Part shown: positions 1 through 10,115 of the stretch, one piece after another
How positions within the stretch are numbered: the stretch's first letter is position 1
Layout of the letters: every line of letters starts with the position of its first letter
From: Methanolobus sp. UBA32
GTDB taxonomy: Archaea > Halobacteriota > Methanosarcinia > Methanosarcinales > Methanosarcinaceae
Direction: 5' to 3'
Assembly (NCBI GenBank): GCA_002507205.1
Contig: DAZF01000058.1
Coordinates: forward strand, 1-33,537
DNA length: 33,537 nt
The notes under the pieces: generated by a model
Databases searched by the model: none
Told to the model about the DNA's origin: nothing
What the model saw: the letters and a program-made list of their open reading frames with translations, nothing else
Made by a program: the position numbers and the translations under genes

Positions 1-118
1 AAAAAAAAAAGCCACTCTATTCATAGGGTGGTAGTTGACGTGCCTGCATTCATATCTTATGAAAGTTGGCAACCATCTTCTGTTTAGAAAACTTTTTATT
101 TGTAACAATACATTAATC

Positions 119-168
119 TGGTTATATATTATATGTCACTTACTTTCAAAAATCACTTTCATAGAGGT
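119..168 (+). promoter_or_regulatory. Promoter and ribosome binding site of ino1
   Basis: An archaeal TATA-like stretch (TTATATATTATAT, 122-134) lies about 45 bases before the ino1 start codon. A Shine-Dalgarno core GAGGT (164-168) is 6 bases before the ATG at 175. Transcription probably starts near 150. Bases 1-118 hold a run of ten A at the very start and no gene that I can support. Confidence 0.55.
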
Positions 169-174
169 AGTTGA

Positions 175-1278
175 ATGGACAAAATCAAGATTGCAATTGC
201 AGGTATTGGCAATTGTGCAAGCTCTCTGATACAAGGCATTGAGTATTACAAAAACAAAGAAGAAAACGATGCTATAGGCCTTATGCACTGGGAAATTGGT
301 GGCTACAGGCCATTTGATATCGAGGTAGTTGCTGCATTTGATATTGACAAAAGGAAAGTTGGTAAGGATATATCAGAGGCTGTTTTTGCGTTACCCAACT
401 GTACGGCCGTATTCTGCCCTGACCTTCCAAAAACGGATGTAATTGTACAAATGGGCCGTATTCTTGACGGTGTTTCCGAACATATGGTAAATTACAGTGA
501 CAGCAGAAGATTCATTCCTTCTTCTGAAAAAGAAGCTGACAAAGAATCGGTGGTTCAAAAATTAAAAGAATCCGGGGCAGAGATATTACTTAACTATCTT
601 CCAGTAGGCTCAGAGGAAGCCACCAGTTTCTATGCTGAATGTGCTCTTGAGGCAGGAGTTGCATACATTAATAACATGCCTGTTTTCATCGTCAGCAATC
701 CTGAATGGGCTGCAAAATTCGAGGAGAAAGGTATTCCGATCATCGGTGATGACATAAAGGCCCAGCTTGGAGCGACTATCACTCACAGGACACTTGCAGA
801 CCTTTTCCGTAAACGTGGTGTGAAACTGGAGAGGACCTACCAGCTCAATACGGGGGGTAACACTGACTTCCTTAACATGCTTAACAGAAACAGACTTGCT
901 TCCAAGAAGGAATCTAAAACAGAAGCTGTCCAGTCTGTAGTTGGCCAGAGGATGGACGATGATAATATCCATGTGGGTCCAAGTGATTACGTACCATGGC
1001 AGAATGATAACAAGGTCTGCTTCCTGAGGATGGAAGGTAAGCTCTTTGGTGATGTTCCAATGAATATCGAGCTTCGTCTTTCGGTAGAGGACTCTCCTAA
1101 TTCCGCTGGTGTTGTCATTGACGCTATAAGGTGCTGTAAAATTGCTCTTGACAGGGGAATCGGTGGAATCCTGTATTCGCCTTCATCCTATTTCATGAAA
1201 CATCCTCCAAAGCAGTTCACTGATGATGAAGCCTATGTGATGACAGGTGAGTTCATCAGAGGCCTGCGCGATAACTGA
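175..1278 (+). CDS. ino1: Inositol-3-phosphate synthase
   Basis: Converts glucose 6-phosphate to 1D-myo-inositol 3-phosphate with bound NAD. In methanogens this feeds phosphoinositol head groups of ether lipids. The 367-aa length matches the short archaeal/actinobacterial class. An N-terminal Rossmann motif GIGNCASSLIQG (residues 11-22) binds NAD, and the family motifs NTGGNTDFLNM and DYVPWQND are present in the catalytic half. The start is supported by GAGGT 6 bases upstream. The gene is monocistronic or joined with the DUF429 gene that begins 13 bases after its stop. Family assignment is firm; the exact lipid product is inferred. Confidence 0.95.
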   Translation: MDKIKIAIAGIGNCASSLIQGIEYYKNKEENDAIGLMHWEIGGYRPFDIEVVAAFDIDKRKVGKDISEAVFALPNCTAVFCPDLPKTDVIVQMGRILDGVSEHMVNYSDSRRFIPSSEKEADKESVVQKLKESGAEILLNYLPVGSEEATSFYAECALEAGVAYINNMPVFIVSNPEWAAKFEEKGIPIIGDDIKAQLGATITHRTLADLFRKRGVKLERTYQLNTGGNTDFLNMLNRNRLASKKESKTEAVQSVVGQRMDDDNIHVGPSDYVPWQNDNKVCFLRMEGKLFGDVPMNIELRLSVEDSPNSAGVVIDAIRCCKIALDRGIGGILYSPSSYFMKHPPKQFTDDEAYVMTGEFIRGLRDN

Positions 1279-1291
1279 ACCGGAATCATAC

Positions 1292-2119
1292 ATGACATTT
1301 GCTGCCACTGGAATACAGCGCAGGATATATGGCGTTGATTTCAGTGGTGCAAAGGATGCAGGTCGCAAGATATGGGTAAGCGAAGGCTTTGTGGAAACAG
1401 GAGAACTGGTAATTGTTAAATGTTATCCGGTATCAGAGCTTGTTCCCGGAAAAGTAAAAGACCGGGATGTTTGTCTTTCTGCTTTGTGCGACCTGATAGT
1501 ATCAGACAAAAAGTCTGTTTTCGGGATGGATTTCCCTTTCAGTCTTCCCCGACAATTGATGTCCGGGAAGGACTGGTATTCTTTTATATCTGATTTTCCT
1601 CACGAATATCCCTCTGCAGACCAATTTCGCAAGGCTATGCAGGTTGCCGGAGGGAGGAGTGAATTGAAGCGTCTTACTGATGTTGAGGTCAAAGCCCCAT
1701 TTAGCATTTATAATCTCTGGGTATTCAAACAGACATATCATGGAATTCGTGATGTTGTGCATCCTCTTGTAATGGCTGACAAAGTATGTGCTATTCCGAT
1801 GCAGAGTCCACATGAAAGTAAGCCCTGGATTATGGAGGTATGTCCGGCATCAACGCTGAAGAGCGAGGGTCTTTACATAAGCTATAAAGGCAGATCTGAA
1901 AAAGAGAAAAGAACAAGGGAATACATTCTGGATGAGTTGCTCCACAAAGGAATAACTATCCGGGAAGCTCTCCGGGAAACAATAATAAATAATAAAGATG
2001 GAGATGCCCTTGACAGCTTAATTGCAGCCTATGCCACGTTCAGGTCTGTCAGGAAACTGGATGATGTCATTGGCAATCTGCCTGACATCTATCTCCGGGA
2101 AGGCTATACTTTTTTCTAA
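1292..2119 (+). CDS. DUF429 family protein (predicted RNase H-fold nuclease)
   Basis: A 275-aa protein of the DUF429 family, whose members are predicted to have an RNase H-like fold; the substrate is unknown. The N-terminal YGVDFSGAKDAG segment carries the acidic beta-1 strand typical of the fold. A second acidic motif, FGMDFPFSLP, follows about 70 residues later, and DGDALDSLIAAYA near the C-terminus supplies a third acidic cluster. The reading frame is open from 1247, inside ino1, but the ATG at 1292 just after the ino1 stop gives a natural N-terminus. The 3' end overlaps the convergent AfpA gene by 4 bases. A role beside ino1 is not evident. Confidence 0.75.
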   Translation: MTFAATGIQRRIYGVDFSGAKDAGRKIWVSEGFVETGELVIVKCYPVSELVPGKVKDRDVCLSALCDLIVSDKKSVFGMDFPFSLPRQLMSGKDWYSFISDFPHEYPSADQFRKAMQVAGGRSELKRLTDVEVKAPFSIYNLWVFKQTYHGIRDVVHPLVMADKVCAIPMQSPHESKPWIMEVCPASTLKSEGLYISYKGRSEKEKRTREYILDELLHKGITIREALRETIINNKDGDALDSLIAAYATFRSVRKLDDVIGNLPDIYLREGYTFF

Positions 2120-2661
2120 TCCTTACTGATGCCCAGGATGTCGTAAAGATCATCTGGTCTTTCCAGTACCGTTATATTCTCCATCTGCGCAAGTTTTTCA
2201 GTGTTCGTTACATCGATCTCACGCATTTTCAGTTCCATTACACGTCCTTCCGGAGATACTGTTTTCACAGTTCCTCTTTTCTGGTCCACCGGAAGAATGT
2301 AGATCGGAGTTTTTCCCTTTGCTGTCTGCGCAACAACGTTCGTGACAAGGGTATCGGCAATACCGTATACTATCTTGGCTACAGTGTTTGAGGTTGTAGG
2401 GGCGACGATAAGGGCATCATAATATCCCACCTGCAAAGGACCTGCTATGAAGGGTGAGTTCGGTCCCGCATCGGTCTTGAAATTAGGAAAATCCTTCTGT
2501 ATATCATTCCACATCCGATACCATTTCATGACCGTTTCACCTTCTTTTGACAGGAAGACCATTATTTCGATATCGCTTTTCTTCTTGATATCGACCATTG
2601 TGTCATATGTCTCTTTGATCAGGTCGCCTGATCCGGTAATTCCCCATGCTATTCTCTTCAT
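2116..2661 (-). CDS. afpA: Archaeoflavoprotein AfpA-type FMN protein
   Basis: A 181-aa flavoprotein of the UbiX/Dfp-like fold, related to archaeal AfpA and DmrB-type dihydromethanopterin reductases. AfpA was described in Archaeoglobus as an FMN protein that takes electrons from ferredoxin. The N-terminal AWGITGSGDLIKET is the phosphate-binding loop, and APTTSNTVAKI (about residues 106-116) is the second flavin-contacting loop. PVDQKRGTVKT in the C-terminal third is typical of the archaeal subgroup. It is the last gene of the minus-strand redox operon, downstream of ferredoxin, Isf and the FNR-like reductase, which supports an electron-acceptor role. Whether it reduces a pterin or only carries electrons cannot be told. 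Confidence 0.82.
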   Translation of the reverse strand: MKRIAWGITGSGDLIKETYDTMVDIKKKSDIEIMVFLSKEGETVMKWYRMWNDIQKDFPNFKTDAGPNSPFIAGPLQVGYYDALIVAPTTSNTVAKIVYGIADTLVTNVVAQTAKGKTPIYILPVDQKRGTVKTVSPEGRVMELKMREIDVTNTEKLAQMENITVLERPDDLYDILGISKD

Positions 2662-2703
2662 GATTCTTGCTGCCTCCTCTCCTCTTTATTCCTGAAATTT
2701 GCT

Positions 2704-3402
2704 TCAATATCCTATCAATGATTCTTTGTGTATCATGCTGTCAGGTATTTTCATATTGTGGAGCATTTCCATCATAGAGTCCACCATCGGCGGCGGTCCG
2801 CATACATAGAAAGCCCGTTCAGCGTAATCGGGTAGTTCTCTTATGATCATACTCTCGCATATGCGTTCCCTGCATCCTGTCCAGCTTTCTGAAGCTCTCG
2901 TGAGTGTATTGAATACGGTAAGGTTCGGATTTTGCTTTTTCATTTCTTCAAGTTCTTCCGTAAATATCATGTCCTGCTCAGTCTTATCGCTGCATATTAA
3001 CATGATATCCGTACTCAGCTTCATATCAGTGGAATACTTACAGATACTGATCATCGGGGTAATTCCTATTCCACCACTCAGGAGTGCTATTTTCTCGTAC
3101 TCTCCTTCAAAGGTCATTTTTCCGAATGGACCACTTATAAGTGCTGTATCTCCGACTTCCATGGCATCCAGCATATTGGAATACTCATGTCCTGTGAGTT
3201 TCTTTGTAAATTCAATATGGTCTTTTTCCGTAGGGCTGCTTGAAAGGGTGAAAGCCTTACTCATCTTCTTCCCATGGGAATCAAGTGTCACTGTGATGTA
3301 TTGTCCGGCTTTGTAATCAAAAGCCTCCGGTTTTTTGAACCTGAAACTTTTCACATTGTATGTCCGTTTGATTATCTCGTTCACAGGCTCTTCGAATTTC
3401 AA
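2704..3402 (-). CDS. FNR-like FAD/NAD(P)-binding oxidoreductase
   Basis: A 232-aa single-chain flavin reductase of the ferredoxin-NADP+ reductase superfamily. An FAD-binding beta barrel comes first, with KAFTLSSSP at 49-57 in place of the usual RxYS motif. The nucleotide-binding domain has GGIGITP (110-116) and CGPPPMV (201-207), which are hallmark motifs. No Fe-S domain is fused to it, so an external ferredoxin such as the one encoded upstream is the likely partner. The start is a TTG preceded by a strong AGAGGTGAG Shine-Dalgarno 3 bases away. The preceding isf stop codon is 10 bases upstream. Preference for NADH or NADPH cannot be read reliably. Confidence 0.85.
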   Translation of the reverse strand: MKFEEPVNEIIKRTYNVKSFRFKKPEAFDYKAGQYITVTLDSHGKKMSKAFTLSSSPTEKDHIEFTKKLTGHEYSNMLDAMEVGDTALISGPFGKMTFEGEYEKIALLSGGIGITPMISICKYSTDMKLSTDIMLICSDKTEQDMIFTEELEEMKKQNPNLTVFNTLTRASESWTGCRERICESMIIRELPDYAERAFYVCGPPPMVDSMMEMLHNMKIPDSMIHKESLIGY

Positions 3403-3412
3403 CGTCTCACCT

Positions 3413-4033
3413 CTATTTGAGAGTCTTCATCGCAATGGCTGTCTTGATCATCTTGTTGACGGTTCTGTGAAGACTTCGAATTCCTTCCGAATCCTCGGCA
3501 ACTCCTTCTGCACCTTTGTCCTGGGACCAGAAAGTCCCTCCAAGATTGGATCCAAAGGATCCGCCTCCAACAGGTATCATCTCACTGATTATATAGAAAT
3601 TAAGAATATTCTGTATGGCCGGTTCCTGTCCGCCTATCCTGTCTCCGCCAACAGCAGCTGCAGCGCCGACCTTGTTCATAAAGGCCTTAGGGTCACGGGC
3701 AACGACTGCACGACACCTGTCCATTATTGTCTTTGTCTGGGCACTTAAAGTACCCTGGTATACGGGAGTGCCAATTATCCATGCATCAGCCCATAGCATT
3801 TTATCGTAGAGTTCCACGAGGTCATCCTTGTGTATGCATCCCTCTTTTTTACGTACACAGTAATCGCAATGGATGCAGAATTTCATATTTTTGCCACTGG
3901 CAGAAAAATACTCTACTTCTACGTCATATTTCTCCTGTGCGAATCTGAGGGCTTCATTCACAACATAGTCTGTGGATTTCTTCCTGGGACTGCCTGAAAT
4001 TCCCAGTAGCCGAATGCTGGTGTCATCTGACAT
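3413..4033 (-). CDS. isf: Iron-sulfur flavoprotein (Isf family)
   Basis: A 206-aa flavodoxin-like NADPH-dependent FMN reductase family protein. The FMN loop GISGSPRKKSTD lies at 11-22. A compact cysteine motif follows (C53, C56, C59, C66; spacing CX2CX2CX6C), matching the Isf signature that binds a [4Fe-4S] cluster between the flavodoxin strands. GTPVYQGTLSAQTK is the second FMN-contacting loop. Methanosarcina Isf is reduced by ferredoxin and has been proposed to reduce O2 and H2O2; which role applies here is inference. It lies between the ferredoxin and the FNR-like reductase. A GGAGTG Shine-Dalgarno precedes the ATG. Confidence 0.87.
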   Translation of the reverse strand: MSDDTSIRLLGISGSPRKKSTDYVVNEALRFAQEKYDVEVEYFSASGKNMKFCIHCDYCVRKKEGCIHKDDLVELYDKMLWADAWIIGTPVYQGTLSAQTKTIMDRCRAVVARDPKAFMNKVGAAAAVGGDRIGGQEPAIQNILNFYIISEMIPVGGGSFGSNLGGTFWSQDKGAEGVAEDSEGIRSLHRTVNKMIKTAIAMKTLK

Positions 4034-4053
4034 TATGGCACTCCGTATTGTTT

Positions 4054-4245
4054 TCAGTCTAATGTTATTGCTTCTGTAGGACAGGCGTCAACACAGTTCC
4101 CACATTCCACACAGTCATCCGGGCGTGCGATTACGGCTTTCAGATTTCCGCTCTCGTCTGATTCAATGTCTATAACATCTGTTGGACATGATTCTGCGCA
4201 TGCGCCAATTCCTTCACATTTATTCCTGTCTACTTTTGGTGGCAT
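4054..4245 (-). CDS. Small ferredoxin, probable [3Fe-4S][4Fe-4S] type
   Basis: A 63-aa bacterial-type ferredoxin. The second motif is complete (C45, C48, C51, C55 followed by P56). The first has C10, C16 and C20-P21, but isoleucine 13 replaces the expected second cysteine. With normal ligand swapping (first-motif Cys 1-3 plus fourth Cys of motif two), one cluster has only three cysteines, so a [3Fe-4S] or labile [4Fe-4S] centre is expected beside a normal [4Fe-4S]. Its Shine-Dalgarno AGGAGG is formed by the last arginine codons of the cytochrome gene just upstream, so translation may be coupled. It is the likely electron hub of the operon. Confidence 0.9.
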   Translation of the reverse strand: MPPKVDRNKCEGIGACAESCPTDVIDIESDESGNLKAVIARPDDCVECGNCVDACPTEAITLD

Positions 4246-4248
4246 TTT

Positions 4249-5670
4249 TTATTTCCTCCTTTTATTTTCTGTAAAAATATGCATAATCAGGACAAAGGCC
4301 ATGGAAGCAGCAAAGATGCTGAATCCTGGTGTTGATTCCGTTCTCTCCTCAGGTGGGGTGGAAGGGTCGTATATAGTACTGGACGCCTTATTCATGCTTA
4401 TTACAGGGACCTCATACATTTCCTTACCAAACAGGTGGTCAATGATATACTGAGGCGCTGACCTGTAATTCAGGCTTGTCTCTACCTTTAGTGGATAAAC
4501 AATATCTTCTGGCAGAATGAATGTGTGTTCTTCTGTCACGGTTTCTTTAGGTCCGATCCTGTTATCTTCCAGAACCCTGTCGGCAAGCCAGAAACTATCG
4601 GTTGCATTACCGTCACTATCGGCCAGTATATTATTATAAATAATTTTTGCTGATTCTATGTTCCCTTCGCCATCAAGGGTACCTGCACTGTATATCTCTT
4701 TACCTTCGCTGTCAGTGACAATCACTTCAAGCCATATCTGTCTTATCTCTGAAACACCGGTTGGGATGTTATGTCCTGCTCCTGAATTTGTGATGGCTGC
4801 CTGAATATTGACCTTTTCACCTGTGGCTACTGTCTCAGGTGTCGTCACTTCCAGTGTTGCAGCATTTTGAAGCCTTTCAATTGCCATGTCTGCAACGTTT
4901 CCAGCACCGAACATTACGGGAATGAATGCGTTTCCACCCACGATATCATGTGATGAAATATGGTCTCTCTTAGGTGCACCGGATCCTGCACGGCCGGGGT
5001 TTGCCTCGAATCCTGTGATGCCTTCAGTCATATGGCAATCCTGGCATTCCACATTGTCCTCAGCGTACTGGCTGTCCTTCCATGTTGGGTACGTGTCATC
5101 TATGACAAGTCCGTTAACCGGATGTATCACTTCATGGCACATGCCACAATATTCGGATTGGGTATAGAGTTCAAGGTATTCTGAGTCATGATAGGCAGAC
5201 TTTGAGTCGTCAAAAGGTCCCCATTTTGTATCTCCCGGGGTTACTGTGAATGGTGCATTGCCTGTTCCGTTACTTCCTGATACGACATGACAGAAGTCAC
5301 ATTGTACTCCGAGCTTTGAGATGTCACTCATTCCGGAGCCATCTAAAGGGGGTATCTCACCGGACACAACACCTATGGGGGTGTGGCATCGGGAGCAGAA
5401 TTCGTCCACCAGTCCGTCGGTGTCAGCACTTGCAACTTTTACCTCTTCCAGATAGAAAGGATCCAGATATGCATTGAAGTGCATTGTACCTTCCCATTCC
5501 CCATAAATGATGGCATGGCATTGTCTGCATCTGCTTTCGTATGTAAAATCATCGGCAGAATATTCTCCGAATTTTGTAGCTTCTGTTGCAGCTGCAAAGC
5601 CGCTGAACAAAGATACTAAAATGATGGCTGCCATGAAAATCAGGCTGCCTTTCCCAACCCTTCCCCACAT
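4249..5670 (-). CDS. Pentahaem c-type cytochrome with archaeosortase-type C-terminal anchor
   Basis: A 473-aa exported multihaem cytochrome. The Sec signal peptide occupies about residues 1-28 (basic start, hydrophobic core, cleavage near FAAA-TE). Five CxxCH haem sites are visible: CRQCH 48-52, CSRCH 92-96, CDFCH 124-128, CGMCH 175-179 and CQDCH 209-213, with extra His residues that could be distal ligands. Residues from about 270 to 430 look like a beta-sandwich domain without haem motifs. The tail has P448-G449-F450, a hydrophobic stretch (451-466) and a basic end (KRRK), the layout of PGF-CTERM signals processed by archaeosortase. It therefore probably sits on the outer membrane face. A GAGAGGAT Shine-Dalgarno supports the ATG. 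Confidence 0.92.
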   Translation of the reverse strand: MWGRVGKGSLIFMAAIILVSLFSGFAAATEATKFGEYSADDFTYESRCRQCHAIIYGEWEGTMHFNAYLDPFYLEEVKVASADTDGLVDEFCSRCHTPIGVVSGEIPPLDGSGMSDISKLGVQCDFCHVVSGSNGTGNAPFTVTPGDTKWGPFDDSKSAYHDSEYLELYTQSEYCGMCHEVIHPVNGLVIDDTYPTWKDSQYAEDNVECQDCHMTEGITGFEANPGRAGSGAPKRDHISSHDIVGGNAFIPVMFGAGNVADMAIERLQNAATLEVTTPETVATGEKVNIQAAITNSGAGHNIPTGVSEIRQIWLEVIVTDSEGKEIYSAGTLDGEGNIESAKIIYNNILADSDGNATDSFWLADRVLEDNRIGPKETVTEEHTFILPEDIVYPLKVETSLNYRSAPQYIIDHLFGKEMYEVPVISMNKASSTIYDPSTPPEERTESTPGFSIFAASMAFVLIMHIFTENKRRK

Positions 5671-5716
5671 ATCCTATCCTCTCAATAGTATATCACGAAT
5701 TAATTGAATTTGTTCA

Positions 5717-5736
5717 AAGGAGCCTTGTGGCTCCTT
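5717..5736 (-). promoter_or_regulatory. Intercistronic hairpin upstream of the cytochrome gene
   Basis: A perfect 8-bp inverted repeat (AAGGAGCC / GGCTCCTT) with a 4-base loop lies in the gap between the AhpD-like gene and the cytochrome gene. The outer flanks pair imperfectly and extend it by about 2 more pairs. In the minus-strand transcript it is not followed by a U tract, so a processing or mRNA-stability element fits better than a terminator. Confidence 0.5.
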
Positions 5737-5747
5737 CAAAGAATATC

Positions 5748-6122
5748 TTATTTGAGCAGCTTCAGTGCATCTCTGCATGCAGCAACTGCAGGAGCGCCGG
5801 ATGTGATGAAAATGACATCCATTGTCTCCATTATCTCTTCTTTTGTTGCTCCGTTCTTCAGAGCACTCTTCATTTGTGATGCAACACAACGTTCACACTG
5901 CTTTGATGCAACGACTGCAAGAGCCATCAGTATCTTTGTTTTAGCAGGCAGTGCTCCGTCACTGAGTATCTTGTTGTTGCACATGTTGTACTTGTGGAGG
6001 AACTCAGGTTCAAGCTCTCCAAGTGTTTCCAGAATCTGTGGTGTGAATCCTAATTTCCCGGACATATCGTCAATGATCTCTTTGTGTCCGCCACATCCTT
6101 TTCCTTTATTTTCTCCGCACAT
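5748..6122 (-). CDS. Carboxymuconolactone decarboxylase / AhpD-like protein
   Basis: A 124-aa all-helical protein of the AhpD-like family. AhpD enzymes use a CxxC pair as a thiol peroxidase or disulfide reductase. Here the pair is C76-E-R-C79, in the context [17 protein letters not shown]. The histidine that normally lies four residues after the second Cys is replaced by Q83, so the proton relay differs from classical AhpD. The N-terminus is also Cys-rich (C2, C10). A strong GGGAGG Shine-Dalgarno precedes the ATG. Its place among redox proteins argues for thiol/disulfide chemistry rather than carboxymuconolactone decarboxylation, which needs an aromatic pathway not seen here. Confidence 0.82.
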
Positions 6123-6155
6123 AATTTATCCTCCCTGTTATTAAAGCAAATATAA

Positions 6156-6374
6156 TCAGTCAAATCCGTCTTCAATGGTCTGGCCAAAACAGTAGTGGCA
6201 CAGAATCCTTGGCAATCCGTTTGGAAGCCTTTGAACATGAGGTGGCTGACCTACTGATACCGGAAGTTCAAGTTCCTTCGTGTGGTCAGTGCAAAGTCCT
6301 TTTCCGCAAGCGATACAGACACATGTTGCTTCTGCGTCTTTTCCTTCTTCCATGCAGTCATAGCATTTCATCAT
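6156..6374 (-). CDS. DUF2180 family Cys-rich small protein (copy 2)
   Basis: A 72-aa protein of the archaeal DUF2180 type. Its Cys/His pattern CYDC ... CVCIACGKGLCTDH ... CHYC resembles a treble-clef or B-box zinc-binding module (about two metal sites). Function is unknown. It starts MMKCYDC; either Met could be used, and a TAGGTGAT Shine-Dalgarno overlaps the stop of the preceding paralogue, so the two are translationally linked. It is a tandem paralogue of the gene at 6383-6622 and precedes the AhpD-like gene by about 33 bases. A DNA/RNA-binding, adaptor or metal-sensing role are all possible. Confidence 0.75.
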   Translation of the reverse strand: MMKCYDCMEEGKDAEATCVCIACGKGLCTDHTKELELPVSVGQPPHVQRLPNGLPRILCHYCFGQTIEDGFD

Positions 6375-6382
6375 GATATCAC

Positions 6383-6622
6383 CTAATAGTTCTCCACCAG
6401 TGCTTTATGGCAAGGCATGCAGAGCACTTTCTTCCAGTGCTGGACATCCTTATAATCGCAGGCTATCCCCATTCCACACTTCAGTTTTATGCTGTATTCA
6501 CCTTCCCATACAGGTGTTTCTTCCCTGACCAGGTGTTCCTTACAGACACCTCTCCCACAGATTATGCAGATAGCCAGTGTATCGCTATCTTTACCATTTT
6601 TTGAACATTCATAGCATTTCAT
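6383..6622 (-). CDS. DUF2180 family Cys-rich small protein (copy 1)
   Basis: A 79-aa DUF2180-type protein starting MKCYECSKNGKD. It carries CYEC, CIICGRGVCKEH, a single Cys in the LKCGMG segment, a further Cys in GIACDY, and CMPCH near the C-terminus, suggesting two zinc sites. An in-frame TTG at 6640 would add six residues (MNRVII), but the ATG at 6622 is preceded by GAGTGAT and matches the start of its paralogue. It shares the fold pattern with the next gene, pointing to tandem duplication followed by divergence. Function is unknown. It begins 14 bases after the 33-aa leader ORF and forms the first substantial gene of the redox operon. Confidence 0.73.
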   Translation of the reverse strand: MKCYECSKNGKDSDTLAICIICGRGVCKEHLVREETPVWEGEYSIKLKCGMGIACDYKDVQHWKKVLCMPCHKALVENY

Positions 6623-6636
6623 GATGATCACTCTAT

Positions 6637-6738
6637 TCAAAATTTAGTTTGTTCGCAAGCTGTTCCCGTATATATCTCATATTCTTGCAGATAGGCAAAT
6701 GCTTGTTTGAGGCAATGACTAAATAACTCCCTCGACAT
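6637..6738 (-). CDS. Putative 33-aa leader ORF of the redox operon
   Basis: A short ORF encoding 33 residues, beginning MSRELFSHCL and ending ACEQTKF, with two cysteines (C9, C28). It is preceded by one of the best Shine-Dalgarno sequences in the window (AGGAGGTGA, 2-3 bases before the ATG). The stop lies 14 bases before the ATG of the first DUF2180 gene, overlapping its possible TTG start. I recognise no family. It may be a real small protein, a regulatory leader peptide, or a coupling ORF. The reading is directly visible; expression is inference. Confidence 0.5.
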   Translation of the reverse strand: MSRELFSHCLKQAFAYLQEYEIYTGTACEQTKF

Positions 6739-6778
6739 TGTCACCTCCTACAAATATGAACAATATTTCTTCTGACAT

Positions 6779-6803
6779 TTACCGGATATATCTGTAACGG
6801 TAA
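6779..6803 (-). promoter_or_regulatory. Inverted repeat enclosing the probable TATA box of the redox operon
   Basis: TTACCG (6779-6784) and CGGTAA (6798-6803) form a perfect 6-bp inverted repeat with 13 bases between. The spacer begins with GATATATC (6785-6792), the best TATA-like element for minus-strand transcription, about 50 bases upstream of the leader ORF. A regulator bound here would cover the TBP site. The remaining intergenic DNA to 6950 holds two TGATCA hexamers (6867-6872, 6885-6890) and no gene. Confidence 0.45.
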
Positions 6804-6950
6804 GTACATGTTTATTTTTCACAGAGTGTTAATGTTCTGCAGTTCTATTATATGATGACTCTGTTTTGATCATTCGTACTTCTCTGATCACTTTTGGCTT
6901 GTTCTTTGCTCATCATTTTCGCGTGTTTTGCCAAAATCAAACCAACAAAG

Positions 6951-7987
<1,037 letters not shown>

Positions 7988-8010
7988 GAAAAGAACGTCG
8001 GAGGCAATTA

Positions 8011-9039
8011 ATGGCCCATCCAAAAATATTAGAGGTCATTGAGCACGACGTCTGTACCGCTTGTGGGGCATGTGTTTCAGCATGCCCTGCTGGTGCTATT
8101 GTTATGAACAAGCGTGCAGAAGTCCGTGACCCTGATAATTTAGAATTATATATCCAAGGAGCAGCACCTAATGTATGTGAAGGATGTCTCACATGCGGAA
8201 GATTGTGTCCTGTGATCGATGGATATGCAGAAGACGAATTTGCAAATGTAAAAGAGTTCTTCGGAGCAAAGAGCACTATCCAAGGTCAGGATGGTGGTGT
8301 CACATCCATATTAGCAAAGGCTTTGCTGGAAACCGGTACTGTAGATTGTATTGTTGGTATCACCAAGGATGATAAATGGGGTACTGAGCTCATAGTTATG
8401 ACCAAACCGGAAGATGTTGACAGGACAACAGGTACTAAGTATACCTACGATTCCGTACTTTCAGCACTCAGGGAACCTTTTGAGAAATACGATAAGATAG
8501 GCGTAATTGGCGTACCCTGTCAGGCACACGGCGCACGTCTCCTTGTTGAGAATAACAACGACAAGATCGTTGTGATCCTTGGTCTGCTGTGCATGGAAAG
8601 TTTCCATCATGATGTTATGACCGAGAAGATCGTTCCTGAAGTAATGGGACTTAACCTTGACGATGTCGTAAAGATGGACTTCGGTAAGGGTAAATTCTGG
8701 AACTACACAAAAGATGGTGAAGCCCACAGTGTGAAGATCCCTGAAGTTGCTCACTATGCAAGGAACCCATGTCATCACTGTTGTGACTATACTTCAGTGT
8801 CCGCTGATATCTCACTCGGTTCAGTCGGTACTCCGGATGGCTGGAACTGTGTGCTCATACGCACAGACGTAGGCAAGAAGATGTTTGAACTTGTCAAAGA
8901 CAAGGTCGAGCTCATGGAAGATCCAAAACCAGGAATGGACCTGATCCAGAAACTTGCTAAAATGAAACACGATAACAACTCAGGACACTATCTAGAAGTG
9001 TGTGAGAAGTTCACATTCGATGAATGTGGCATTCACTGA
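8011..9039 (+). CDS. fpoF: F420H2 dehydrogenase subunit FpoF (FrhB/FpoF family)
   Basis: The F420H2-oxidising input module of the Fpo complex; it also acts as a soluble F420H2:ferredoxin oxidoreductase. Two [4Fe-4S] motifs lie at the N-terminus, CTACGACVSACP (about 14-25) and CEGCLTCGRLCP (about 55-66). They are followed by the FrhB-type F420/flavin domain, including SIQGQDGGVT-like and GVPCQAHGARLL motifs. The 342-aa length fits FpoF. In Methanosarcina fpoF lies apart from the main fpo operon, next to mer, which is the arrangement here. CGGAGGC precedes the ATG. Confidence 0.93.
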   Translation: MAHPKILEVIEHDVCTACGACVSACPAGAIVMNKRAEVRDPDNLELYIQGAAPNVCEGCLTCGRLCPVIDGYAEDEFANVKEFFGAKSTIQGQDGGVTSILAKALLETGTVDCIVGITKDDKWGTELIVMTKPEDVDRTTGTKYTYDSVLSALREPFEKYDKIGVIGVPCQAHGARLLVENNNDKIVVILGLLCMESFHHDVMTEKIVPEVMGLNLDDVVKMDFGKGKFWNYTKDGEAHSVKIPEVAHYARNPCHHCCDYTSVSADISLGSVGTPDGWNCVLIRTDVGKKMFELVKDKVELMEDPKPGMDLIQKLAKMKHDNNSGHYLEVCEKFTFDECGIH

Positions 9040-9051
9040 TGGTTATCACAT

Positions 9052-9570
9052 ATGTACATGAGAAGAGCGTTCTATATCGGACGCTTTCAACCATTTCATC
9101 TCGGACATTATTCCATTATAAATGATATTGCCCGGGATGTTGATGAGGTCGTAATTGGTATAGGCAGTGCGCAGAAAAGCCACGAGCCTAAGAATCCATT
9201 TACTGCAGGTGAACGCGTAATGATGATCAGGCATTCTCTCGAAGATGCTAATGTGAAACATTACGCCATACCTCTGGAAGACCTGCAAAGAAATGCCGTG
9301 TGGGTTTCCCATATTATTTCTATGACGCCACCTTTTGATGTAGTCTACTCCAATAATCCGTTAGTTGTACGTCTTTTCAAGGAAGCAGGTATCGATGTCA
9401 GGCAACCTCCAATGTATAAGAGGGAAGGTTATTCTGGCAGTGAAATACGAAGGCGTATGTTGAATGATGAGGACTGGAGGTCGCTTGTTCCTGAAGCGGT
9501 TGCTGATGTAATTGATGAAATAGATGGTGTTAACCGGCTCAAAAGCGTTTCCAAATCAGATGCTGACTAG
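9052..9570 (+). CDS. nadM: Nicotinamide-nucleotide adenylyltransferase
   Basis: NadM joins NMN and ATP to make NAD+. This is the archaeal-type NMNAT with the nucleotidyltransferase motif GRFQPFHLGH (residues 10-19) near the start and the closing motif YSGSEIRRRM (variant of ISTxxR) about 35 residues from the end. The middle segment IGSAQKSHEPKNPFTAGER is also family-typical. The 172-aa length is normal. The ATG at 9052 and a second ATG at 9058 are both possible; neither has a strong ribosome binding site. It follows fpoF by 12 bases and is probably co-transcribed. Confidence 0.93.
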   Translation: MYMRRAFYIGRFQPFHLGHYSIINDIARDVDEVVIGIGSAQKSHEPKNPFTAGERVMMIRHSLEDANVKHYAIPLEDLQRNAVWVSHIISMTPPFDVVYSNNPLVVRLFKEAGIDVRQPPMYKREGYSGSEIRRRMLNDEDWRSLVPEAVADVIDEIDGVNRLKSVSKSDAD

Positions 9571-9572
9571 TA

Positions 9573-10115
9573 TCAGTAAATGTTTTTACTTTTTAATTCG
9601 AGACCTTTGTGGATAGCTGCATTGAATACCTTTGAGCAGCAGTTCCCCGTTGGATTTCTCACCTTGCACTGGCATTTGGCACCTTTATCATAGAATTCCC
9701 TTATGGTTCCCATATCCTGCATTCCCTGTTCCATAACTGCTTTAATCACATCATTTTCAGTTATACGGCTGCAGTAGCAGGCATATTTTGGATTTGCATC
9801 TTTTTTGAACCATAAAGGCACTCGGATGTTGTCCTTATCAAAGATGGCACCATTCTCGTCGTAGTAAGCAACATCACATTCAGGGTCCATGCACAGGTGA
9901 TAGTCCCCTTTCCCGACTCTTTCCATTTGCTCTTTTTTGACAATATGCCTGACTGTGACATTTTTGACAGGCATCCCAGCTTTCTTGCAGACAGGACATA
10001 AAATATTAGATATAGGACTTAGAGTTGTATCAATTATGTTCTTTCCAATTACATGAATTGGATTGAAACGATTTGGTATTTCACTTTCATTGTTGCGCAA
10101 GAATCTCACCTTCAA
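9573..10115 (-). CDS. CopZ N-terminal-domain-like [2Fe-2S]/zinc protein
   Basis: Resembles the N-terminal domain of Archaeoglobus CopZ, which binds a zinc ion and a [2Fe-2S] cluster, but lacks the C-terminal HMA copper-binding domain. Cysteines are arranged as C40-x2-C43 and C75-x4-C80 (first half), then C113-x-C115, C148-x-C150 and C159-C160 (BFD-like second half). No ATG start exists before the first Cys pair. The frame opens with TTG (10115), GTG (10109) and TTG (10100); the last has a GGTGAG Shine-Dalgarno 4 bases away. It overlaps the end of the PhzF gene by up to 29 bases. Copper handling is only a possibility; electron transfer or Fe-S delivery is equally open. Confidence 0.72.
   Translation of the reverse strand: MKVRFLRNNESEIPNRFNPIHVIGKNIIDTTLSPISNILCPVCKKAGMPVKNVTVRHIVKKEQMERVGKGDYHLCMDPECDVAYYDENGAIFDKDNIRVPLWFKKDANPKYACYCSRITENDVIKAVMEQGMQDMGTIREFYDKGAKCQCKVRNPTGNCCSKVFNAAIHKGLELKSKNIY

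Follow-up and report, generated by a model that had tools for sequence, protein, structure and literature searches.

The window analysed here is a 33,537-nucleotide stretch of Methanolobus sp. UBA32 DNA (contig DAZF01000058.1), on the minus strand of which a run of eight genes, including one for a pentahaem cytochrome, extends from position 6622 to position 2116. Each of these genes has at least one Pfam match over the gathering score and, according to the Pfam and NCBIfam matches, they encode in this order two DUF2180 proteins, an AhpD-like protein, the pentahaem cytochrome, a ferredoxin, an Isf-like iron-sulfur flavoprotein, an FNR-like reductase and the archaeoflavoprotein AfpA, separated by 8, 33, 77, 3, 20, 10 and 42 nucleotides. 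An initial annotation of the same DNA had already assigned these families to the eight genes, and the matches bear it out.

Both DUF2180 proteins (6383..6622, 79 amino acids, PF09947 E 1e-22; 6156..6374, 72 amino acids, PF09947 E 5.5e-21) are cysteine-rich. The next gene (5748..6122) encodes a member of the AhpD/carboxymuconolactone-decarboxylase family (PF02627 E 3.5e-19) with a CxxC motif at C76 and C79, scoring 31.1 bits against a cut-off of 27.8 with the AhpD core model TIGR00778. The pentahaem cytochrome (4249..5670) has a signal-like N-terminus, a C-terminal Ig-like domain and a C-terminal hydrophobic segment; of the eight products it alone has hydrophobic segments, one N-terminal and one C-terminal, the other seven being without membrane segments, and it is probably held on the cell surface. 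The small ferredoxin (4054..4245; PF00037) departs from the 2[4Fe-4S] pattern of eight cysteines in two CX2CX2CX3C sites in that it has only seven, arranged as CX5CX3C and CX2CX2CX3C, so that a 3Fe cluster may occupy one of the two sites; the same first-site pattern is found in the relatives examined (L001, L002 and L020). The hallmark of Isf is a compact CX2CX2CX4-7C motif, and the Isf-like protein (3413..4033; PF03358, FMN_red, E 9.5e-33) combines the FMN_red fold with such a motif, CX2CX2CX6C, at C53, C56, C59 and C66. No 2Fe-2S domain was found in the FNR-like FAD/NAD(P) reductase (2704..3402; PF00970 and PF00175), while AfpA (2116..2661) scores 271.1 bits with TIGR02699 against a cut-off of 192.45. 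Beyond it lies a convergent DUF429-like gene (1247-2119), the stop of which overlaps that of afpA by four bases (2116-2119).

Gene order in the Methanosarcinaceae

Relatives of the cytochrome were collected in a scan of genome contigs, from which the best 80 of 128 were kept. They include that of Methanolobus sp. Soudan_27 (L001), which is 88% identical to the window cytochrome; genome G455 aligns with the window at 90.6% over 8,779 bases. The complete eight-gene order recurs in 14 loci (L001-L008, L010-L012, L025, L038 and L042), and a core of six genes (both DUF2180 genes, AhpD, cytochrome, Isf and AfpA) in nine Methanosarcina-type loci (L022, L024, L027, L028, L031-L034 and L064), which means that the grouping is not due to chance; a lack of conserved clustering, named in the initial annotation as grounds for refuting its operon, is thus not what related genomes show. 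Wherever the sequence of a Methanosarcinaceae locus extends far enough, mer and fpoF lie divergently, followed by DUF2180a, DUF2180b, AhpD, cytochrome, (ferredoxin), Isf, (FNR) and AfpA. Ferredoxin or FNR relatives did not turn up among the operon genes of the Methanosarcina-type loci, and the Methanococcoides loci (L017-L019) are without the ferredoxin.

In these sister operons the set is joined by genes for oxygen-defence enzymes. A superoxide reductase (SOR) gene lies between AhpD and the cytochrome in all nine Methanosarcina-type loci (in L028, PF01880 E 4e-31; L034 begins with a desulforedoxin-like domain, PF06397), and AfpA is followed by a rubrerythrin-family gene in 9/9 and by FprA in 8/9 of them. 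In the Methanococcoides loci and in Methanohalobium L021 a rubrerythrin gene separates FNR from AfpA (in L017, PF02915 E 9.8e-34). In 13 Methanolobus-type loci a rubrerythrin-family gene and FprA are placed past DUF429 and Ino1, a position that in the window would fall just off the left end. SOR is absent from the operon both in the window and in the Methanolobus loci, and is encoded elsewhere in the genome in five Methanolobus-like genomes, while in G450 the sole SOR found is the one within the operon. Among 20 genomes searched, 18 hold one to four SOR matches overall and six have SOR within reach of the cytochrome.

Judging by gene order, the window operon would be the Methanolobus form of M. 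acetivorans MA4664/MA3734-3743, for which section 11 of PMC3729527 (PubMed Central, PMC, numbers are used for citation throughout) uses the name putative oxidative stress operon. As deduced through the Methanosarcina loci L022, L024, L027 and L028, the latter has the same DUF2180-DUF2180-AhpD-cytochrome-Isf-AfpA order, divergent from mer. The Methanolobus form differs in having ferredoxin and FNR but no SOR inside the operon, and in that FprA and the rubrerythrin-family gene, which directly follow AfpA in the MA4664/MA3734-3743 type, lie beyond DUF429 and Ino1 and are thus not contiguous. The window cytochrome is likely the orthologue of MA3739, and the five-haem gene of M. mazei is probably an orthologue too.

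As a separate observation, four loci from Methanosarcinales metagenome-assembled genomes (L015, L016, L020 and L029) have TusA-, DsrE-, NifS- (class-V aminotransferase) and NifU-like genes inserted after the cytochrome gene, the NifU-like (NifU_N) protein of L016 being fused to a disulfide-reductase domain according to Pfam.

The cytochrome family and its genomic surroundings

The five CXXCH motifs of the cytochrome are located at residues 48, 92, 124, 175 and 209, and the Pfam family Cytochrome_C554 was matched in 37/37 sampled members of its family. Five CXXCH motifs and an Ig-like domain in one fold are also what defines the pentahaem/Ig-like cytochromes (PHC), including Thermochromatium tepidum penta-haem cytochrome c552 (PDB 5ze8), ExtKL, Gsu2801 and the sPHC and lPHC of cable bacteria, to which identity is 20% over the aligned part; unlike these, the archaeal members have a C-terminal hydrophobic segment and an oxygen-defence gene context. 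Excerpts of one paper place the penta-haem/Ig-like family among potentially catalytic cytochromes with a penta-coordinated haem (PMC11976967). In 102 five-haem homologues only four histidines outside the CXXCH motifs are near-universal (H64 in 101/102; H161, H241 and H300 in 102/102), and an assignment of haem ligands based on this conservation makes an open haem site possible. MmcA (MA0658), the cytochrome of extracellular electron transfer in M. acetivorans, is likewise a multihaem cytochrome of a methanogen, but it has seven haems and is related to octahaem tetrathionate reductases, whereas five, not seven, were found in the family of the window cytochrome; moreover, in the excerpts available MmcA is needed for reduction of anthraquinone-2,6-disulfonate (AQDS) and MA3739 is not.

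Homologues were sought further afield with a profile at E<=1e-40 and were obtained in 27/296 Spirochaetota genomes, in 63/344 genomes of the phylum of the anaerobic methanotrophic (ANME-1) genome G008 (ten of these distant, above 1e-75), in 13/198 genomes of the phylum of G011 and in 7/12 of the phylum of G016. Sixty homologue regions and 40 comparison regions were fetched, with wide flanks covering 26/27 Spirochaetota, 24/63 ANME-1-phylum (plus the named loci) and 12/13 Actinobacterial-phylum genomes with matches. In these we counted eight families concerned with O2 or reactive oxygen species (ROS), namely SOR, rubrerythrin, rubrerythrin-family, FprA, peroxiredoxin, rubredoxin, CydA and ferritin, using profiles built from loci of this same study. 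By a strict count, at least two such families are found near the cytochrome in 39/50 Methanosarcinaceae-like and 7/8 ANME-1-like loci, but in 0/20 archaeal and 0/20 bacterial comparison regions, of which 2/20 and 0/20, respectively, have a single family. The strict count was adopted because the looser FprA profile of an earlier one had caught flavodoxins; that earlier count gave 8/8 ANME-1-like loci and 1/20 archaeal comparison regions. The comparison regions lie at chosen round coordinates in 11 Methanosarcinaceae-like genomes (20 regions) and in 12 Spirochaetota and four Actinobacterial-phylum genomes (20 regions), so the ANME-1-like loci and the group of other bacteria are read without comparison regions of their own.

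The Methanosarcinaceae-like loci were reduced from 55 to 50 by merging four duplicate pairs and removing one locus without a cytochrome match over the threshold. The group labels of some genomes were set by gene context, and a quick tree groups L213 with the ANME-1-like loci, although the counts include it among the Methanosarcinaceae-like ones. Outside the groups remain L030 (in which FprA comes after the cytochrome), L044, L051, L059, L063, the distant L065-L080 and L221, and the short loci L081-L161.

Among the bacteria, in Spirochaetota L052, L055 and L056 the homologous cytochrome gene adjoins, in divergent orientation, an FprA-Rd-CydA-CydB-SOR-Ftn-Rbr cluster (rubredoxin, ferritin and rubrerythrin being Rd, Ftn and Rbr); relatives of DUF2180, AhpD, Isf and AfpA were not found in these three loci. 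Six related Spirochaetota (L170 and L174-L178) have cytochrome c maturation genes instead (CcmB, CcmE, CcmF and another assembly protein in the examples matched with Pfam). In the quick tree of 110 homologues, the backbone of which is weak (root forks 24% in the Shimodaira-Hasegawa-like approximate likelihood ratio test, SH-aLRT), oxygen contexts appear on several branches, comprising archaea, two Spirochaetota groups, L054 and L057/L053.

Some further features of the family were recorded in passing. The bacterial homologues L053 and L057 have an additional N-terminal mono-haem segment and thus six CXXCH motifs; several Actinobacterial-phylum homologues (G801, G779, G758 and G822) have one or two in-frame stops inside the match; and G345, G354, G386, G443, G480 and G504 hold a second, distant cytochrome set (frames of 533-577 amino acids, E ~1e-42 to 4e-54), which belongs to the same archaeal phylum as ANME-1 genome G008.

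Upstream region and regulation

Fourteen nucleotides ahead of the first DUF2180 gene lies a 35-amino-acid open frame (6637..6744, minus strand), which the initial annotation had counted as a ninth, leader gene. It has no family match, and among eight aligned upstream regions (window and L001-L007) a similar peptide of 34-35 amino acids occurs just in the window and L001, the position being taken by short unrelated peptides in L002-L005 and lacking a start in L006 and L007; we therefore do not regard it as a conserved gene. The start region of L207 is the same as that of the window.

What is strongly conserved across the eight aligned Methanolobus-type loci is the promoter-like block that precedes it (6745..6805, minus strand), with a core around TTACCGTTACAGATATATCCGGTAAATGTCAG followed by a ribosome-site-like GGAGGTG. 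Within it the window has the inverted repeat TTACCG ... CGGTAA, which is imperfect in the other Methanolobus-type loci. A regulon sharing the 17-base core was considered and rejected, since with up to two mismatches the core was found nowhere but at the operon in 4/5 Methanolobus-like genomes, the fifth, G624, having one extra site with two mismatches. Control by the redox regulator MsvR was likewise discarded: its motif TTCGN7-9CGAA has a single match in the window, where 0.91 are expected, and this lies within isf (3475-3491) and not upstream of the operon. No RNA family exceeded its gathering score in window positions 1-10000, and a scan for sigma-type promoters and terminators, not apt for archaea, gave 14 and 6, compared with 10.4 (standard deviation 3.5) and 3.5 (standard deviation 2.2) in shuffled sequences.

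Probable oxidant defence and the alternatives

We consider it probable, though well short of certain, that this is an oxidant-defence operon of the Methanosarcinaceae in the form it takes in Methanolobus. Protection against oxygen, and not outward electron transfer, is the most likely role because the relatives keep the set together with known oxygen-defence genes. Oxidant detoxification was one of the options of the initial annotation and has gained ground, as sister operons add SOR, rubrerythrin and FprA and some distant homologues lie near oxygen-defence genes more often than the comparison regions do. Another option, in which NAD(P)H or ferredoxin would pass electrons in one line along the flavoproteins to an acceptor outside the cell, is not supported, and a single electron chain through all the parts was rejected, since only the cytochrome has a membrane segment and the electrons of the cytosolic flavoproteins thus have no outward carrier in the operon.

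By topology the operon divides into the exported haem protein and seven products that lack membrane segments. In the proposed cytosolic arm, ferredoxin, regaining its electrons from the FNR-like protein or from metabolism, would feed Isf and AfpA, which together with the AhpD-like protein may remove O2 and peroxide while maintaining thiols and Fe-S centres in the reduced state; Isf reacts with O2 and H2O2. In the outside arm, the anchored pentahaem cytochrome, presumably supplied with electrons from the methanophenazine pool, might reduce incoming O2, superoxide, peroxide or NO (nitric oxide) at an open-site haem, or hand electrons to a partner that does so. The two arms would be linked through regulation and physiology under one promoter, without a direct wire, and for the DUF2180 proteins a role as metal- or redox-binding accessories is probable. 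A more specific proposal, which we put forward only tentatively and think rather doubtful, is that the cytochrome is an extracytoplasmic, methanophenazine-fed haem reductase for O2/ROS, of a type that methanogens and ANME-1 would share with some Spirochaetota and that would shield the cell from oxidants on its outer side, complementing cytosolic SOR, rubrerythrin and FprA.

Several points weigh against an oxidant-defence role. The window itself is without SOR, rubrerythrin and FprA. At least two O2/ROS families are found near the cytochrome in only 8/26 Spirochaetota, 3/15 other bacterial and 0/14 Actinobacterial-phylum loci; the difference between the other bacteria and the bacterial comparison set is not clear-cut (Fisher 0.07), and P values overstate the case because the loci in each group are related. 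As the counts by group and the branches of the tree differ, the association with oxygen defence is strong in archaea and present in some bacteria, and is not family-wide. Other conserved residues (H183 in 88/102, H237 in 89/102, M214 in 102/102, M426 in 100/102 or K149 in 100/102) might serve as haem ligands too, and MA3739 is listed, in the available part of PMC6703419, without a transmembrane helix and with location unknown, at odds with surface anchoring. Published excerpts further report that the MA3739 transcript is up 4.1-fold with AQDS (PMC6703419), higher under direct interspecies electron transfer (DIET) than on acetate, the protein not being verified (PMC8546582), and up 80% without mmcA (PMC11024163), that expression of the M. 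mazei gene is high in ordinary growth (PMC11921357) and that MsvR did not bind the M. acetivorans operon in electrophoretic mobility shift assays (section 11 of PMC3729527). No O2 phenotype for any operon gene was found in the open PMC literature.

The responses to AQDS, DIET and loss of mmcA would fit a redox role or a module for extracellular electron transfer, in which the cytochrome would act at the surface as a reductase or as a port for electron uptake and receive its electrons from the cytosolic ferredoxin and flavoproteins or from methanophenazine. Its likely surface location and five haems fit such a module, and so does the membership in the family of Geobacter ExtKL, whose ext cluster contains several cytochromes and an outer-membrane porin. 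We nevertheless regard it as unlikely: in the dMA3739 strain both AQDS reduction (PMC6703419) and Fe(0)-dependent methane formation (PMC10989991) are reported unchanged in the passages concerned, the M. mazei gene is lower with ferrihydrite according to an excerpt of PMC11921357, the operon has no membrane-crossing partner and the genes neighbouring its relatives encode oxygen enzymes. A role in nitrosative stress, in which the cytochrome would reduce NO or hydroxylamine with a flavodiiron protein and Isf as partners, is quite improbable. It could draw on the consistent Cytochrome_C554 match, on the possible open haem and on the fact that flavodiiron proteins also act on NO, but the recurring neighbours are SOR, rubrerythrin, peroxiredoxin and cytochrome bd, which point to O2/ROS.

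That the operon serves the turnover of sulfur compounds or the repair of Fe-S centres, and not oxidant removal itself, is suggested by the TusA, DsrE, NifS-like and NifU_N insert described above and by the sulfur-metabolism role proposed, in the text available, for the T. tepidum relative; we give this little credence, as the insert occurs in few loci and Fe-S repair itself belongs to oxidant defence. Hardly credible at all is that the operon serves energy metabolism in general, in association with mer and fpoF, and that the oxygen-defence neighbours are there by co-location only. The divergent mer-fpoF pair is indeed retained with the operon, and the high expression of the M. mazei gene would agree with it, but the O2/ROS association is also present in ANME-1-like and Spirochaetota loci, in the searched regions of which mer was not found.

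The available parts of PMC8097209 hold nothing on the Isf of the operon, those of PMC9539880 and PMC12369344 do not mention its cytochrome, and that of PMC3017947 lists oxygen-defence genes of Methanohalophilus mahii without mention of the operon; PMC9012536 does not mention superoxide, oxidative stress or rubrerythrin, and PMC4338226 does not name MA37xx loci. In the open PMC literature the cytochrome family was not found linked to oxygen-defence clusters across domains. The oxidant-defence operon proposed here is largely a known one in a different gene arrangement, and what is new is the placement of its cytochrome in a set of homologues that spans the domains and, in archaea and some bacteria, is kept beside oxygen-defence genes.

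There is a tendency to interpret the surface multihaem cytochromes of methanogens as electron conduits to minerals or syntrophic partners. In the present case the genes found alongside, in archaea as well as in some bacteria, point to oxygen defence. Such a role may explain why the dMA3739 strain has no phenotype in extracellular electron transfer and, because that strain is published, can be tested at once; it also bears on how strict anaerobes survive oxygen.

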